Virus record (IMG/VR): IMGVR_UViG_3300045733_000153
Location: 1 to 25,700 of that record
Strand: one strand, 5' to 3'
Length of the DNA: 25,700 nt
DNA from: a virus
This document shows, in pieces, positions 6,998 to 14,208 of this stretch. The notes under the pieces were generated by a model. That model was not told the origin of the DNA. It did no database searches and worked only from the letters and a program-made list of their open reading frames with translations. Positions within the stretch are counted from its first letter, which is position 1, and the number at the start of each line of letters is the position of its first letter. Made by a program: the position numbers and the translations under genes.

Positions 6998-8983
6998 CTA
7001 AATTCTACCTTCTTCAGTCAATACCAACTGTGCCAATGTCATATTTGCAATTGCTACCTTTAAATGAAGGAAGTCAGGAGCGTGTTGGTCTATGTCAGCC
7101 GTTGCTGAATAGAACATATAAACTTTGCCATTAACTTCTATTAAATGTATATCAGCAACTTGACCAAGGCTGATGCCAACTCCTTCATCAGATGTTTTTC
7201 TTGTAAATACGTAATTAACCGTATCTTTTACCCATGTAATTAAGTCCGTTGATTTGTATCTATAAAAAAGATCAGTCGGCCTATCTACTGTTGTATCGGT
7301 TCCATGCCCCCACAAATAAAACGTTGAACCTGATTTTATTACCTGTGGCCCTCCTCGCATTCCTGCAAATTGCAAATTCAAAGTAGTTGTTCCGTACTTA
7401 GTCCACGTTCTCAGGTCTGGTGACGTTGCGAGTCCTGTTTTCCATAGTACTCCATCACTAGCCTCATAAAACATATAGTACGTACCTGCATTATAAATAA
7501 TGTTTTTATTAGCAATCTGGGAATAATCCCATCCAGCCGTAGCCTTTGCAAGCAATACATTTGCAGTATCCAATGTAAGATTAACCCCATCGCTGGAAGT
7601 ATAGAGGTCGAAGGCTTTCATTGTTGTCCCGTTTGCTACGATGAAATAATAAACTCCTGAGACTTTAATTAAATCAGGACAACGACATGGTGCAATTAGT
7701 GGAGTTGCATATTTAGACCAAGAATCAGGTAATCCTGTTAATGATTCAGCATAACATAAGGAAACAGATCCTCCGTTTCCGTTTGTATACCACATTTTAA
7801 ATACATTAGTTGCGCCTGTTAGAATCTGAGGATTACCCTCATATAAAATTGTTGATTCACACGCGCCAGCTAAATTTCCGCTTACCAACCCCGTTAATAC
7901 CGTACCTTGTGACAACCATACAGGAGAGGGGTCAGCCTGAATTGTATAATTGGGAAAATTAGCTATATAGTCATTTGACGATAAAGATACATTGTCAAAA
8001 ATAAGCGTATTACTCCAAGTGGGAAAATTCTGTTCATTTGAAAGTACGGCATAGTATGGGCCTGAAATTGAAAACGTCTGAGTTGTGCCTATTTGCGTCC
8101 ATTGCCCAGCCAAACCACCGTCAACATGGGTAAATACCTCCCAATAGAAAAATTTCACATTCGTTCCGTCTGTCCATATTTTTACATCCTTATCTTTTGA
8201 AACGGTACTTCCAAACTGGTATCTCTGGACACCCCCTGTATAGACATAAAGCTGATAGGTATTGCCCGGAGAAATAACTGTTCTGTCCCCTATATAAGCA
8301 TAATTAGTTGAGTCTTTATATAAATATAATCCAGCAACTGCTTCTCCTGCATAAGTTCCTGACCATGTAACATGACTTTGAACAACTGCAACGCCTCCGT
8401 TTGCAACAGTAGCAATAGACTTAACATTGTTCCTGAACATTGCAGTATTAGAACCTGTATTTGCTATGTTCAGTGTACCATTCTGCGTAATTACGCTATC
8501 TGGATTGGTAATTGTCCATTTATTTGTATCAATAGTGCTGCCTGTAAAATCATCAGTAAACGCAACATTTGTGATTTGACTTCTAATCGGAGTACAGTAA
8601 GGTGCATAGTTAGTCCCTTTATATAGCCTTGCCCTCCAAAAATAAACTACCCCTGCTGTTAATCCTGTCGCATCGAAAGTCGTATTGACTGAAGTCCCTT
8701 TGACAGTCCATGTCGCACCACTATCTATTGAATACTCAAGAGATGTACCTTCTTGTCCTGTACCCACAATTCCCAATGTTATCCTTTGTGAAGTATTTGT
8801 AAGAAAAACAGCCGACATTTCAGAAATATATCGTGCATTCCAGTAACTATCTAACGATTCTACTGGTTCATCTCTCTTATCTGTCTCCCAACGTAACAAA
8901 TGATATTCATTACTACCAACGGTATGACTAGTTGTCATTCGTTCGCCACGTCTTTCTATAACTCTATTATATCTGCCAGCCAT
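6998..8983 (-). CDS. Mosaic tail fibre with Fn3, concanavalin-like and GH43-type beta-propeller domains
   Basis: A 661-residue protein. Residues 1-55 (MAGRYNRVIERRGERM...) look like a virion-anchoring start. Residues 56-135 form an Fn3-like domain (SLEYSIDSGATW, YFWRARLY). Residues 141-335 resemble a concanavalin/LamG-type jelly roll (DDFTGSTIDTNKW, then GLYLYKDSTNYAYIGD). Residues 352-661 carry five blade-like repeats of the kind seen in GH43/GH32/GH62 five-bladed propellers: FKMWYTNG, CPDLIKVSGVYYFIVA, IIYNAGTYYMFYEASDG, PQVIKSGSTFYLWGHG and ADIHLIEVNGKVYMFYSA, alternating with SSDG and STDLITW turns. The part after the anchor is clearly richer in GC (about 45-48% in lines I counted, against about 32-37% in the muzzle gene), suggesting recent acquisition. 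It probably binds or trims host glycans. Catalytic acids are not assigned with confidence. It ends with TAG. Confidence 0.66.
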   Translation of the reverse strand: MAGRYNRVIERRGERMTTSHTVGSNEYHLLRWETDKRDEPVESLDSYWNARYISEMSAVFLTNTSQRITLGIVGTGQEGTSLEYSIDSGATWTVKGTSVNTTFDATGLTAGVVYFWRARLYKGTNYAPYCTPIRSQITNVAFTDDFTGSTIDTNKWTITNPDSVITQNGTLNIANTGSNTAMFRNNVKSIATVANGGVAVVQSHVTWSGTYAGEAVAGLYLYKDSTNYAYIGDRTVISPGNTYQLYVYTGGVQRYQFGSTVSKDKDVKIWTDGTNVKFFYWEVFTHVDGGLAGQWTQIGTTQTFSISGPYYAVLSNEQNFPTWSNTLIFDNVSLSSNDYIANFPNYTIQADPSPVWLSQGTVLTGLVSGNLAGACESTILYEGNPQILTGATNVFKMWYTNGNGGSVSLCYAESLTGLPDSWSKYATPLIAPCRCPDLIKVSGVYYFIVANGTTMKAFDLYTSSDGVNLTLDTANVLLAKATAGWDYSQIANKNIIYNAGTYYMFYEASDGVLWKTGLATSPDLRTWTKYGTTTLNLQFAGMRGGPQVIKSGSTFYLWGHGTDTTVDRPTDLFYRYKSTDLITWVKDTVNYVFTRKTSDEGVGISLGQVADIHLIEVNGKVYMFYSATADIDQHAPDFLHLKVAIANMTLAQLVLTEEGRI

Positions 8984-8994
8984 TTTAATTAATT

Positions 8995-9459
8995 TTATTC
9001 AAAATAGTCACACTGATTCTTTTTTATAATTTGAGCCAATTCTCTTTTTAAAGATCTACTTGGTACAAATTTATAATAGTATAAATTAGGTACTGCTGTA
9101 TTTTGTTTTGACCAATAAAACCTATACACAAAACCACGTGAATGAGTATTCAAGTGGTATATCTGTTTGTTATATTTTACGCTTTCTACCCAATTTATGC
9201 CAAACCTATTTAAATGTTCAATATCTATCTTTCTCTTTATAATCCTTAGTACCCCTAATCTAAATGGGAACTTATATTCAGTACCTTTATATAATACATC
9301 ATCTAGTATCTTCTGATAATAAGTTACTATAATACTTTTGAATACTTTAAAATCTACTTTATATAAATCATTATCTCCTAAAGAAGATAAGTAATATTTA
9401 TAAATATCTTTTAAGTTGTGTAAGTTTTGTATCTTGTTAGGGCCTCTCGAGAAAAACAT
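8995..9459 (-). CDS. Conserved small basic protein of the crAss-like structural block (interrupted by an HNH gene, start rebuilt)
   Basis: A 154-residue basic protein rich in Lys, Arg and Tyr, without membrane segments. It has KFPFRLGVLRIIKRK near the middle, NRFGINWVESVKYNKQIY, then a YRFYWSKQ motif and FVPSRSLKRELAQIIKK at the end. A family with these landmarks (a LG-x-LRI-x-K strand, a YHLN, a WSK and a final FIPTR-like helix) is common in the tail region of Bacteroidetes phages, including crAss-like ones. Its exact role is not known to me; a minor tail or assembly protein is likely. The ATG at 9459 lies inside the 3' end of the HNH gene (23 nt overlap, different frame). Its first ten residues (MFFSRGPNKI) are repeated as a stub just after ring protein 2, at 9889-9924. 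The intact ancestor therefore probably started there, overlapping the ring protein 2 stop. Confidence 0.6.
   Translation of the reverse strand: MFFSRGPNKIQNLHNLKDIYKYYLSSLGDNDLYKVDFKVFKSIIVTYYQKILDDVLYKGTEYKFPFRLGVLRIIKRKIDIEHLNRFGINWVESVKYNKQIYHLNTHSRGFVYRFYWSKQNTAVPNLYYYKFVPSRSLKRELAQIIKKNQCDYFE
9430..9459 (-). repeat. Downstream, recoded copy of the MFFSRGPN start sequence
   Basis: These 30 bases are the first ten codons of the 154-residue gene. They pair with 9895-9924, exactly 465 bp upstream in the transcript. The two versions translate as MFFSRGPNKI and MFFSRGPNNI. At the nucleotide level codons 2, 3, 4, 5, 6, 9 and 10 differ. Ser changes from AGC to TCG and Arg from CGT to AGA. Only codon 9 (AAT/AAG) changes the amino acid. 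The longest identical run is CCTAACAA. This copy also encodes the last residues of the HNH protein (DVFLERP) in another frame. Confidence 0.85.
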
Positions 9460-9889
9460 CTTCTATTTTTTTACTTAAATATTCTTTTGCTTTATCTAAT
9501 AATTCTATATTGTCTTCAAAACCACCTATAGATAAATTACACTTGATACATAATAACCCACGTATTTTACCAGTTACATGATCGTGGTCAACAGACAAGC
9601 TTTTACTAAATTCACTTTCATGTTTACCACATATAGCGCAACAACCATTTTGTTTTAAAAATATTAAATTATATTCTTCAATTGTAATACCATAATACTT
9701 TTTTAAAAATTCATTTTTTATAATAGGCTTATGTGCTGTTCTATTAATTATAGATCTACATATCTTACAACGGGAATCCCTATAATACTCTTTACCTCCT
9801 GATTTATGAAATTCAGATCTACTTTTAGTAATTCCACATCCAATACATTTCTTAACTAAAATTTTATCTCCTTTTACTGATGCTCCCAT
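9437..9889 (-). CDS. HNH endonuclease, recombination endonuclease VII type, probable homing endonuclease
   Basis: A 150-residue protein. An N-terminal zinc-ribbon-like part has C15-x2-C18 and C41-x2-C44. It is followed by the endonuclease VII core: C84-x2-C87, then D101-H102-D103-H104 in LSVDHDHVTGKIRG, then C114-x2-C117 with N118. In T4 endonuclease VII the four Cys hold zinc, and the Asp-His pair and the Asn after the last Cys form the active site; all are present here. The ATG overlaps the stop of the 11-codon stub (TAATG), and the 3' end overlaps the start of the 154-residue gene by 23 nt. The insertion and the split, recoded start point to a free-standing homing endonuclease. It shares a long stretch of its core with the HNH gene at 10627-11178, so the two are paralogues. 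A role as a Holliday-junction resolvase is possible but fits the location less well. Confidence 0.88.
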   Translation of the reverse strand: MGASVKGDKILVKKCIGCGITKSRSEFHKSGGKEYYRDSRCKICRSIINRTAHKPIIKNEFLKKYYGITIEEYNLIFLKQNGCCAICGKHESEFSKSLSVDHDHVTGKIRGLLCIKCNLSIGGFEDNIELLDKAKEYLSKKIEDVFLERP

Positions 9890-9924
9890 TATAAAATATT
9901 GTTAGGACCACGGCTAAAGAACAT
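9889..9924 (-). pseudogene. Stranded 11-codon start of the 154-residue gene
   Basis: ATG at 9924 opens a frame reading MFFSRGPNNIL and then TAA. The first ten residues match the start of the 154-residue protein except for N9/K9. The ATG sits inside the last codons of ring protein 2, giving an 11-nt overlap (ATGTTCTTTAG), which is the compact spacing used elsewhere in this operon. The stub's TAA overlaps the HNH ATG (TAATG). I read this as the original start of the interrupted gene, left behind when the HNH gene entered. It may still be translated and serve to carry ribosomes from ring protein 2 onto the HNH start. Confidence 0.8.
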
Positions 9925-10624
9925 TATTTAGTTGTATAGGATTATTTATATCATTGTTAGTTACATCAGTAGGTGCAACTGCTTCGATTTTAAGTTCCTT
10001 CTGTAGTATCATTGCTTTTAAATCAGGCAACATATTTATTGGTATAGGATATTTTGAATCTAAATCAAAATAAGGTTGATTGGTTATTGGATTAACAAAC
10101 CTACCAACTTCTGATGGTACTTCAAATATCCCCCGTACTTTGATATACTCTAATGGAAAATCATTAATAACATATAATTGTTGATTCCTTAAAAAACAAA
10201 GTCTGTCATTTAATGTGTATTTCTTATACTGCTGCCACCTAACCCTACCTTCTGGAACAAGTTGTATCTCTTCGTCCATAGGTGTACCTATGTACATAAA
10301 ACCAGAATTAAAATTTAAATCAATTGTATTAGGAAGTTTTAATACAGTTCGTTTAATACGTGTATTAGATTTATCTCTATCATTAATGATATCATCTCCC
10401 TCTACTTCTGTTTCTTCTAATCTCAAATGATTAATCTCTTGTATATAATCAGGATTAGGTTTCTTACCTTTATCAAGATCTCTCTTTAATAATACAGCTC
10501 TATATTGATGAACCCAATCTTCTATCTGCCTAATAGATATAGTTTCACTAGAAGATATATTAGATGCTCTAATAATCTTTAGTAAGTCATTTGTAATTGT
10601 ACGCAAGGTTGTAAAAGTTACCAT
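9914..10624 (-). CDS. Tail ring protein 2 (crAss-like)
   Basis: A 236-residue protein. Residues near the N-terminus read RTITNDLLKIIR, then a conserved helix with ISIRQIEDWVHQYRAVLLKRD followed by KGKKPNPDYIQEI. A beta-rich centre and a C-terminal helix (INMLPDLKAMILQKELK) follow. The I-x-x-R-Q-(I/V)-E-x-W-(I/V)-HQYRA-x-L-(L/I)-KRD signature is, as I remember it, diagnostic for a crAss-like virion protein that forms one of the stacked tail rings (ring protein 2). It is soluble with no signal sequence. It ends with TAG, overlapping the ATG of the following stub by 11 nt. It is flanked on both sides by endonuclease VII-type HNH genes. The start at 10624 lies 2 nt after the upstream HNH stop, with only A/T upstream. 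Confidence 0.72.
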   Translation of the reverse strand: MVTFTTLRTITNDLLKIIRASNISSSETISIRQIEDWVHQYRAVLLKRDLDKGKKPNPDYIQEINHLRLEETEVEGDDIINDRDKSNTRIKRTVLKLPNTIDLNFNSGFMYIGTPMDEEIQLVPEGRVRWQQYKKYTLNDRLCFLRNQQLYVINDFPLEYIKVRGIFEVPSEVGRFVNPITNQPYFDLDSKYPIPINMLPDLKAMILQKELKIEAVAPTDVTNNDINNPIQLNNVL

Positions 10625-10626
10625 AT

Positions 10627-11178
10627 TTAATTATTTTTTATTATGTATTCAAATGCGTTTCTAAGTAATTCTGTGGATTCCATAAAATAACCTAATCCTC
10701 TATTGCAATTACCACACAGTAGACCTTTTATTTTTCCAGTCACATGATCATGATCAACAGATAGGCTTTTACTAAATTGACTTTGATGCTTACCACATAT
10801 TGCACAACAACCTTTTTGATTTTCAAATAACTCGTTGTACTGATCTAAAGAAATTTTATACCAATAATTTAAATGAACATTACGTATTACTTTTGGATTT
10901 TCTTTTCTATATTTTAAACTTCTCTTACAATCGCATATTTTACATACGGAAGCTTTACCACTATATGAATATTTAAATTTATAAAAATCAGATAAAGGTT
11001 TAGTTAATCCACATTTACTACAAGTTTTAAATTCTGGTATAATTCGTTTGGTATATTTATATTCTGGCCAATCTAAAGATTCACATCTAAATTTAATCTT
11101 ACCTCTAGCAAAATGTAAAGTTTTAGCAGCTTCTGTAATTGAGTTAAAATAAATATTATTTATTATTAAACACGGCAT
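10627..11178 (-). CDS. HNH endonuclease, endonuclease VII type with NUMOD-like N-terminus
   Basis: A 183-residue protein. Residues 5-30 (INNIYFNSITEAAKTLHFARG) look like a NUMOD1-type DNA-binding helix found in homing endonucleases. A zinc-ribbon-like section follows with C53-x2-C56 and C79-x2-C82. The endonuclease VII core has C125-x2-C128, D142-H143-D144-H145 in LSVDHDHVTGKIKG, and C155-x2-C158 followed by N159, so zinc and catalytic positions are intact. The core is nearly identical in motif to the neighbour at 9437-9889; the N-terminal module differs. It begins one base after the stop of the membrane-anchored gene upstream (TAACATG) and ends 2 nt before ring protein 2. It is a free-standing homing endonuclease candidate sitting between genes without breaking either. 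I see no duplicated gene end here, unlike its sibling. Confidence 0.85.
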   Translation of the reverse strand: MPCLIINNIYFNSITEAAKTLHFARGKIKFRCESLDWPEYKYTKRIIPEFKTCSKCGLTKPLSDFYKFKYSYSGKASVCKICDCKRSLKYRKENPKVIRNVHLNYWYKISLDQYNELFENQKGCCAICGKHQSQFSKSLSVDHDHVTGKIKGLLCGNCNRGLGYFMESTELLRNAFEYIIKNN

Positions 11179-11179
11179 G

Positions 11180-11794
11180 TTATTTCTTTTGTTTAAATTT
11201 TATTATAGTAGTACTAAATTCTATACCAAATATATTACCTTGTGGTTGCCAAGTAGCACCAAAAGAACCTTTAGGATATATGTAATCTAATTTTAATGCT
11301 AATTTATTAAATGCATTTAATTTTGTACTATCGTTAGTAAGCTTATATACTGGCATACTTAAACCTAATTGAATATACTTATGATAAGTAATTGAATTAT
11401 CTGTATAATTATTAGTTAAAGTCTGTGGCCTAAGTATGTTATATTTGAAATCATATGACAATGGTTGATTACGACTTATGACAGTACGCAACTTCCAACT
11501 TAGATTACTATCTTGTTCTTCCCAAGTATAACCATATGTACTAAAGTAATCTTTTAATATTGCTGCAGTATCAACATTAGCTGGTATAATTACTGGTTTG
11601 TCTTTATATATCGTATCTCTAATAACCCACGGCTTATAATGATTGACAGAATACCATTGAGTATCTACTACGTATTCTGTATGTGTTATTGTTACTGGAG
11701 GTTTATGAGATTGCCAACCTGCATAAAACCCACTACCAAGCAATGCTAATACAATTAACCCACCTACTATTACTTGCTGCCAAAACTTACTCAT
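11180..11794 (-). CDS. Membrane-anchored, spanin-like protein of the lysis cassette (DUF6808-like)
   Basis: A 204-residue protein. A single N-terminal hydrophobic helix (about residues 8-26, VIVGGLIVLALLGSGFYAG) is preceded by K and followed by a polar region rich in short beta strands (ITHTEYVVDT, VIRDTIYKDKPVIIPANVDT). It ends in a basic tail (KFKQKK). The helix, then paired RDT/PVIIPA segments, then a 'D-x-A-x-(I/L)-L-x-D-Y-F-x-T' stretch resemble Bacteroidetes phage proteins annotated DUF6808, often next to holins. This topology (inner-membrane anchor with periplasmic body) suits an i-spanin-like role, but no lipoprotein partner is visible nearby. The ATG overlaps the stop of the upstream small membrane protein by 8 nt (ATGAGTAA), implying translational coupling. 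The family assignment is from memory. Confidence 0.55.
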   Translation of the reverse strand: MSKFWQQVIVGGLIVLALLGSGFYAGWQSHKPPVTITHTEYVVDTQWYSVNHYKPWVIRDTIYKDKPVIIPANVDTAAILKDYFSTYGYTWEEQDSNLSWKLRTVISRNQPLSYDFKYNILRPQTLTNNYTDNSITYHKYIQLGLSMPVYKLTNDSTKLNAFNKLALKLDYIYPKGSFGATWQPQGNIFGIEFSTTIIKFKQKK

Positions 11795-13749: not shown

Positions 13750-14208
13750 TTATATGTGTTTCCAACCTGTACGATTTACTATTCTCTTTATTGTACTTTT
13801 GCTTACTCCATACATTAAAGAAACTAGCCTGGTTGATTTAATATTAAGATAAATTTTTCTTATTTCTAATACTTGTTCTTCAGTTAATTTAGCTGAAGCA
13901 TTTTTTACACCTCTTGCAGATCTTCCTTTATTAGCTTTATCTTTATGATTATCTGCTTCTGTTCCTAAAAATAAATGATCTGGATTTACACATCTTTTAA
14001 CATCACATTTGTGAAGTACATGCTTATCATTTAAAAAGATAGTAGGATTAAATATTTTCCATGATGCTCTATGAGCTAATCTATTTTGTCCATAAATCCA
14101 AAAAATACCATATCCTGTGATATCAATATGACCTTTCCATAACCAACATCCAAAATCATCTTTAATAATTTTAGAAATAAATCTTTCTTCATTAGTCATA
14201 GCTACCAT
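13750..14208 (-). CDS. HNH endonuclease (HNH_3 type) with C-terminal helix-turn-helix
   Basis: A 152-residue protein. Residues 10-50 read FISKIIKDDFGCWLWKG...GYG, a typical start of phage HNH_3 proteins. The nuclease motif is VLHKCDVKRCVNPDHLFLGT, giving H66, C68, C73, N75 and H78. The C-terminal 45 residues (KLTEEQVLEIRKIYL, then LVSLMYGVSKSTIKRIVNRTGW) form a helix-turn-helix that should read the target DNA. It is a different family from the two endonuclease VII-type genes in this window. The ATG at 14208 overlaps the glycosyltransferase stop (ATGGTAG). An internal ATG at 14199 (M4) is an equally good start. It separates a glycosyltransferase from a methyltransferase and is most likely a free-standing homing endonuclease. 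Confidence 0.85.
   Translation of the reverse strand: MVAMTNEERFISKIIKDDFGCWLWKGHIDITGYGIFWIYGQNRLAHRASWKIFNPTIFLNDKHVLHKCDVKRCVNPDHLFLGTEADNHKDKANKGRSARGVKNASAKLTEEQVLEIRKIYLNIKSTRLVSLMYGVSKSTIKRIVNRTGWKHI

Follow-up and report, generated by a model that had tools for sequence, protein, structure and literature searches.

An HNH endonuclease gene (HNH1) that separates ring protein 2 from a 154-codon, seemingly essential tail gene in a crAss-like phage is likely to belong to an intron-less homing cassette, one which carries a diverged homologue of the gene end that it breaks and keeps the host gene whole. The best reading of the locus is that a short stub upstream of HNH1 represents the displaced native start of the 154-codon gene and that the insert would have brought in a substitute start; the nearest relatives free of a homing endonuclease gene (HEG) are 68-73% identical in amino acids. 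A displaced gene end and its insert-borne substitute flank the endonuclease in the window (the whole 25.7-kb stretch of DNA analysed here), native status of the displaced end being directly shown for only one locus of a wider survey (L228, see below). With somewhat less confidence, such cassettes may form a recurrent class in phages, invading essential genes at either end and carrying a diverged, cleavage-resistant substitute. They would then act as natural cleave-and-rescue elements by which phage lineages also exchange gene ends, repeatedly in the HNH/EndoVII family at least.

The interrupted gene and its empty counterparts

The window belongs to a crAss-like phage, as its muzzle (PF25731) and ring proteins (PF24228 and PF25702) match Crassvirales Pfam families. 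Relatives in the family of the 154-residue protein carry annotations such as HU/IHF-like or 'topoisomerase', and no match was obtained when a profile of the family was compared with solved structures. The features of the locus are listed in Table 1.

Table 1. Features around the interrupted gene, in positions of the window
Feature	Position	Strand	Evidence
Ring protein 2 (crAss-like tail ring protein), upstream neighbour	9914..10624	-	PF25702 E=3.7e-44; phrog_9863
Stub, read as displaced native start, MFFSRGPNNIL*, ATG to TAA	9889..9924	-	sequence; 9/10 residues match gene start
Inferred inserted segment, 465 nt: HNH gene and substitute codons 1-10	9430..9894	-	missing from 146 related loci
HNH1, EndoVII-type HNH endonuclease, 150 aa	9437..9889	-	PF02945 E=2.2e-23; phrog_2633
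Substitute start, codons 1-10 of the 154-codon gene, MFFSRGPNKI	9430..9459	-	sequence
GC3-rich tract, codons 2-15 of the 154-codon gene	9415..9456	-	top 0.5% of 14-codon windows
Interrupted and restored host gene, 154 aa	8995..9459	-	phrog_12177
HNH2, EndoVII-type paralogue bordering ring protein 2 on its other side, without a stub	10627..11178	-

On the minus strand, ring protein 2 ends in AAT AAT GTT CTT TAG with the ATG of the stub (9924) inside, the first 11 nt of the stub overlapping this end. The stub reads ATG TTC TTT AGC CGT GGT CCT AAC AAT ATT TTA TAA (9924-9889), and its stop codon shares one base with the start codon of HNH1 (TAATG). The 3' end of HNH1, GAAGATGTTTTTCTCGAGAGGCCCTAA, encodes EDVFLERP*, and its last 23 nt (9459-9437) also encode, in a different frame, the beginning of the 154-codon gene; there the substitute start reads ATG TTT TTC TCG AGA GGC CCT AAC AAG ATA (9459-9430). 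Stub and substitute differ at 10 of 30 bases (20/30 nt and 9/10 residues identical); nine of the changes are silent, including Ser AGC/TCG and Arg CGT/AGA, and one changes N to K. A first-pass annotation of this DNA had described the 11-codon frame, the HNH overlap, the ten differences in 30 bases and the nine silent ones, all of which proved exact to the base.

When MFFSRGPNKI was compared with all other 10-codon windows on both strands of the 25.7 kb, none exceeded 5/10, against 9/10 for the stub, and the likeness between stub and gene start is therefore beyond chance. An unconstrained duplicate followed by neutral decay of the stub was rejected, since none of 1,000,000 random sets of ten substitutions gave one or no amino-acid change and so kept the peptide that well. 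The rejection of neutral drift implies that both copies diverged while serving as coding starts.

For the alignments needed, relatives were gathered with ring protein 2 and with the 154-residue protein as queries; a direct search of viral contigs found no close relatives of the latter. The two genes abut in all of the 146 other loci with both genes (some contigs counted more than once), with a gap of -62 to +55 nt. In the window the interval is +454 nt, and the insert is found in this one of 147 otherwise syntenic loci only, which is the presence/absence pattern of a free-standing phage homing endonuclease. Because ring protein 2 and the 154-residue gene are directly joined in the 146 related loci, as had been predicted for HNH-free relatives, the HNH unit is an insertion. 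Both the empty loci and the recurrence in other phages thus support the earlier proposal of an HNH gene that invaded the host gene at its 5' end, cut a stub off from it and provides a new start in exchange. In the closest relative, L001 (ring protein 2 73%, 154-residue protein 68%), the junction reads ...TAAGTC ATG TTT TAT TCA AGG GGT AAA AAT, and in L005 ring protein 2 and the 154-type gene overlap as TAATG. Homology to the stub ends at 9895 and the 154-codon gene goes on from 9429, so that the insert is most simply described as 465 nt placed after native codon 10 and before codon 11.

HNH1 has intact catalytic DHxH and both zinc CxxC pairs, with VDHDH, CAIC and CIKC conserved in the alignment; by its PF02945 domain and its catalytic and zinc residues it belongs to the EndoVII/HNH (beta-beta-alpha-metal) nucleases, and it resembles Hpy99I and T4 EndoVII. 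An Rfam search of 8900-11300 gave no match at E<=1. A group I intron was rejected on this basis and there is no sign of an intron around HNH1, which has its own start and stop codons and can be regarded as free-standing, outside any detected intron or intein. An AlphaFold model was built to judge the overlapping tail: the last ten residues, the overlap included, form a low-confidence tail of the predicted fold (pLDDT 56), and HNH2 and the HNH protein of L001, both homologous to HNH1, stop before this tail. Foldseek matches of the model beyond EndoVII and Hpy99I were weak. The first-pass annotation had taken the overlap to make the nuclease and the rescued gene hard to separate; the overlap is real, but it is the usual translational overlap and adds to HNH1 just an 8-residue tail of low confidence.

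Other endonuclease genes occur nearby. HNH2 shares 49-52% identity with HNH1, and the catalytic cores are nearly the same; gene conversion or local duplication between the two is possible. L001 also has an HNH gene at the ring protein 2 border occupied by HNH2 in the window, and the insertion at that border is therefore older. A third HNH gene (window 13750-14208), with an HNH_3 domain and a C-terminal DNA-binding part, is flanked by glycosyltransferase-like and methyltransferase-like genes; no displaced gene end was detected beside it. In Buchavirus cr56_1, cr52_1, cr113_1 and cr109_1 (L013-L016), where TAG must be read as Gln, three adjacent junctions hold GIY-YIG and HNH genes that run into the following gene: the one ahead of ring 2, the one separating the 154-type gene from ring 1, and the one separating ring 1 from muzzle. 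No stub was seen at these junctions.

Displaced gene ends at other EndoVII-type endonuclease genes

EndoVII-type HEGs were fetched from viral and genome contigs, and in 268 distinct ones the translated upstream flank was compared with the downstream flank, with permuted pairings as the null. Fourteen HEGs scored above the 99.5% permutation score, where 1.3 were expected. Among the high scores, L352 (twice) and L266 represented tandem HEGs matching each other; L230, a weak match, was dropped, and L194 was suggestive but too short to count. Ten credible cases of a displaced gene end with a substitute were retained, six at gene starts and four in mirror image at gene ends (Table 2), of which about one may be due to chance. 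As the survey is biased towards HNH1 relatives, for which its loci, mostly metagenomic contigs, were enriched, the frequency of ~4% is not a population figure.

Table 2. Credible cases of a displaced gene end with a substitute
Locus	Gene end affected	Gene or matching part	Overlap of HEG and rebuilt gene
Window	start	10 codons, 20/30 nt	HEG end overlaps rebuilt ATG by 23 nt
L172	start	SU10-type adaptor, 17/18 residues, 38/54 nt	1 nt
L314	start	17/34 residues	17 nt
L293	start	terminase large subunit, MKLLDQVEN	14 nt
L229	start	C5-methyltransferase; native start MRYLSVCSGIEAATVA now fused to HEG N-terminus	4 nt
L330	start	phrog_18063; bacterial genome contig	4 nt
L228, L310	end	DUF6321; one HEG lineage, one site	HEG start overlaps gene end by 13 nt
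L218	end	glycosyltransferase; native end fused to HEG C-terminus
L292	end

The rebuilt start shares 1-23 nt with the end of the HEG in the 5' cases, and the rebuilt end shares 4-13 nt with the start of the HEG in L228, L310 and L218. The two copies are 48-71% identical in nucleotides and 38-94% in amino acids across the ten cases. None has near-identical copies, which makes a recent simple duplication unlikely, since such duplicates would be near-identical. No deposited phages with the gene of L172 were found, and a search with L293 gave weak terminase matches only. The arrangement was absent from all 38 AP2/HNH_3-type HEGs, but with 1.4 expected no confinement to the EndoVII type is implied.

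It is very improbable that HNH1 is an ordinary free-standing HEG at a gene border, with a stub that is an unrelated accident or the product of an assembly chimera of two strains. EndoVII-type HEGs are indeed commonly found at gene borders without stubs, and the window is an IMG/VR virus record, probably metagenomic. However, the identity of 9/10 residues together with the geometry is far beyond chance, and the same anatomy recurs in unrelated phages and in a bacterial genome contig (L330).

Which of the two pieces is native can be seen best in L228. Its 30-residue fragment downstream of the HEG, compared over 280 matching records, is identical at 27/30 residues to the intact C-termini of pelagiphage Greip and cyanophage S-SM2, and the gene's present end (RSAGQVKMFPKAAANPESRLNKARRAWDC) is diverged. 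The displaced piece is therefore native and the insert-borne end its replacement. In the cultured cyanophage S-SRM01 (L432:1830-2710), an HEG of the same lineage lies just behind a DUF6321 gene, which likewise has an RSAGQ-type end, and the native fragment is gone; this is possibly a later stage of an insertion of the L228 type. Being cultured and having the linked arrangement, S-SRM01 offers a practical test system. Alternative, diverged versions of the DUF6321 C-terminus go together with an EndoVII gene downstream (L432, S-SRM01), and this suggests that HEGs drive an exchange of gene ends ahead of the cyanophage terminase gene.

Origin of the substitute start

When codons were drawn at random from the phage's own usage, a mean of 3.8 of 8 codons and 4.9 nt changed, and the observed values were 6 and 9. 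Silent divergence between stub and substitute is therefore only modestly above the saturated-codon expectation (P=0.10 by codons and 0.023 by nucleotides). Codons for the same residue differ in 75% of positions between stub and substitute, against ~35% among HEG-free relatives, the latter comparisons being non-independent. Both the nucleotide excess and this contrast, like the nine silent changes out of ten, would be expected if an identical duplicate had been driven in place to silent differences, either by self-cleavage or by recombinational deletion. Such adaptive recoding is nevertheless unlikely: the excess by codons is weak, the Ser AGC/TCG switch takes several steps through non-serine codons, amino-acid changes are present too in most other cases, and near-identical copies, as expected from recent duplication, are seen in none of the ten.

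Moreover, third positions in codons 2-15 of the 154-codon gene are G or C in 8/14, followed by 1/14. The anomaly sets in with the substitute start and stops near codon 15, past the part that matches the stub, which does not accord with recoding in place; the GC3-rich tract may possibly mark the extent of imported DNA. An imported diverged end thus seems more likely than recoding in place. Import from a diverged relative is better supported because the copies in the ten cases look like the ends of diverged homologues, as judged from the identities given above. The first-pass annotation had favoured a recoded start and mentioned such an import as an alternative: the substitute with its nine silent changes stands and deliberate recoding is not needed, and the alternative is now the better-supported origin. 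Selection for a non-cleavable spelling of the substitute may also have contributed.

The codon classes of the substitute (TCN serine, AGR arginine) are those of L001 and L105, which belong to the gene's own clade, and those of the stub (AGY serine, CGT arginine) are not. Since the substitute resembles the gene's own clade, substitute and gene body may have arrived together, or else the stub may be foreign, the HNH gene having brought along part of a start from some other phage and inserted itself just ahead of a native gene that it left intact. The intact downstream gene would agree with a foreign stub. However, the stub adjoins ring protein 2 and overlaps it, like the native start in relatives such as L005, the displaced fragment in L228 is the native one, and the 3' mirror cases fit displacement of native ends; a foreign stub is accordingly considered improbable, slightly more so than recoding in place. 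The substitute may come from another species, to judge from its codon and GC3 traits; no donor was found.

Proposed mechanism and comparison with known systems

We infer cleavage by HNH1, the position of its site, the self-immunity of the cassette and the identity of the donor from the arrangement described above. HNH1 would recognise a site spanning about codon 10 in the conserved start of the 154-codon gene of cassette-free phages. Repair of the cut gene from a cassette-bearing genome would insert the HNH gene and the start of a diverged homologue, with the recipient's own gene end retained on the non-homologous side and its first ten codons left upstream as a dead stub. The stub would probably do no more than relay translation from the stop of ring protein 2 to HNH and on to the gene; the overlaps of ring protein 2, stub, HNH1 and gene imply translational coupling, and coupling by overlap has been described for T4 HEGs (PMC2988022). 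The imported start would restore the 154-residue protein, and the insertion would therefore be harmless. Its spelling would be too different to rebuild the uninterrupted target next to codon 11, so that the cassette should escape its own enzyme; divergence is to be expected if the enzyme is active, because an unchanged copy in this place would rebuild the target. The diverged copies would also be unable to recombine, and the cassette would not be deleted.

If correct, this mechanism explains how a selfish endonuclease can insert into an essential gene of a phage with neither a self-splicing intron nor an intein, and the substitute for the broken part may also serve as the endonuclease's own immunity. 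It further gives a rule for mapping cleavage sites, i.e., the insert begins where the stub ends, and a way for diverged phages to exchange parts of genes.

The view that the arrangement has no named precedent was too strong, as mobile ORFs of fungal mitochondria are alike at gene ends (PMC3630166, PMC7315562). These ORFs carry foreign gene ends and displace the native ones, including cases where all differences are silent (PMC3630166), e.g., in Glomus atp6, atp9, cox2 and nad3 (PMC3630166) and, as cited there, in Allomyces atp6 (Paquin 1994). As in the present case, an endonuclease ORF lies in a gene end with a diverged substitute, the differences are largely silent, and the native end is displaced and partly unexpressed (PMC3630166). 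However, they are mitochondrial and concern C-terminal ends, whereas the cassette described here lies in a crAss-like phage and the cases as a whole involve phages, the HNH/EndoVII type, and 5' as well as 3' ends. Mitochondrial introns of Tremella are similar in that the mobile element contains a stretch homologous to some of its host gene, and exchange of host-gene fragments with other species was proposed (PMC7315562); they are predicted introns, some of them unspliced, while here no intron signal was found and restoration is by the downstream reading frame. The fungal mitochondrial elements are thus the closest precedent, from which the phage setting, the EndoVII type and the use of both gene ends set the present case apart. 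No phage precedent for a displaced end with a substitute was found in the literature searched, most subscription journals lying outside that search.

Among phage systems, MobA and gene 60 of T4 are the closest in logic (PMC5009743): a phage HNH endonuclease lies in a gene, and a companion sequence is thought to protect from cleavage (PMC5009743, PMC2988022). There, however, the host gene is split in two and the protection is a 50-nt bypassed insert (PMC5009743, PMC2988022), whereas here the stub has 11 codons and the 154-codon gene is whole, restored by a diverged coding copy. Engineered home-and-rescue gene drives, as outlined in PMC7968924, are similar in logic, an essential gene being cut and a nuclease with a cut-resistant rescue inserted; they are synthetic and Cas9-based, and the cassette would be a possible natural counterpart of them.

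Free-standing border HEGs (T4 seg/mob, T7-like EndoVII) likewise insert at gene borders, often without a promoter and with translational overlap to their neighbours (PMC2988022), but those examined here are without a displaced gene end and substitute; no stub was found at the T7-like EndoVII genes of the 13/14 and 18.5/19 borders. At the 13/14 border, T7-like EndoVII genes end in YLGG (L019:2150-2200, L021:2160-2200, L023:2160-2200), the codons of which (CTAGGAGG) appear to supply the gene 14 ribosome binding site. In Synechococcus phage 7B11-B (L433), a stretch of 1.7 kb holds three different EndoVII-type genes in alternation with a short gene and one for a terminase small subunit.
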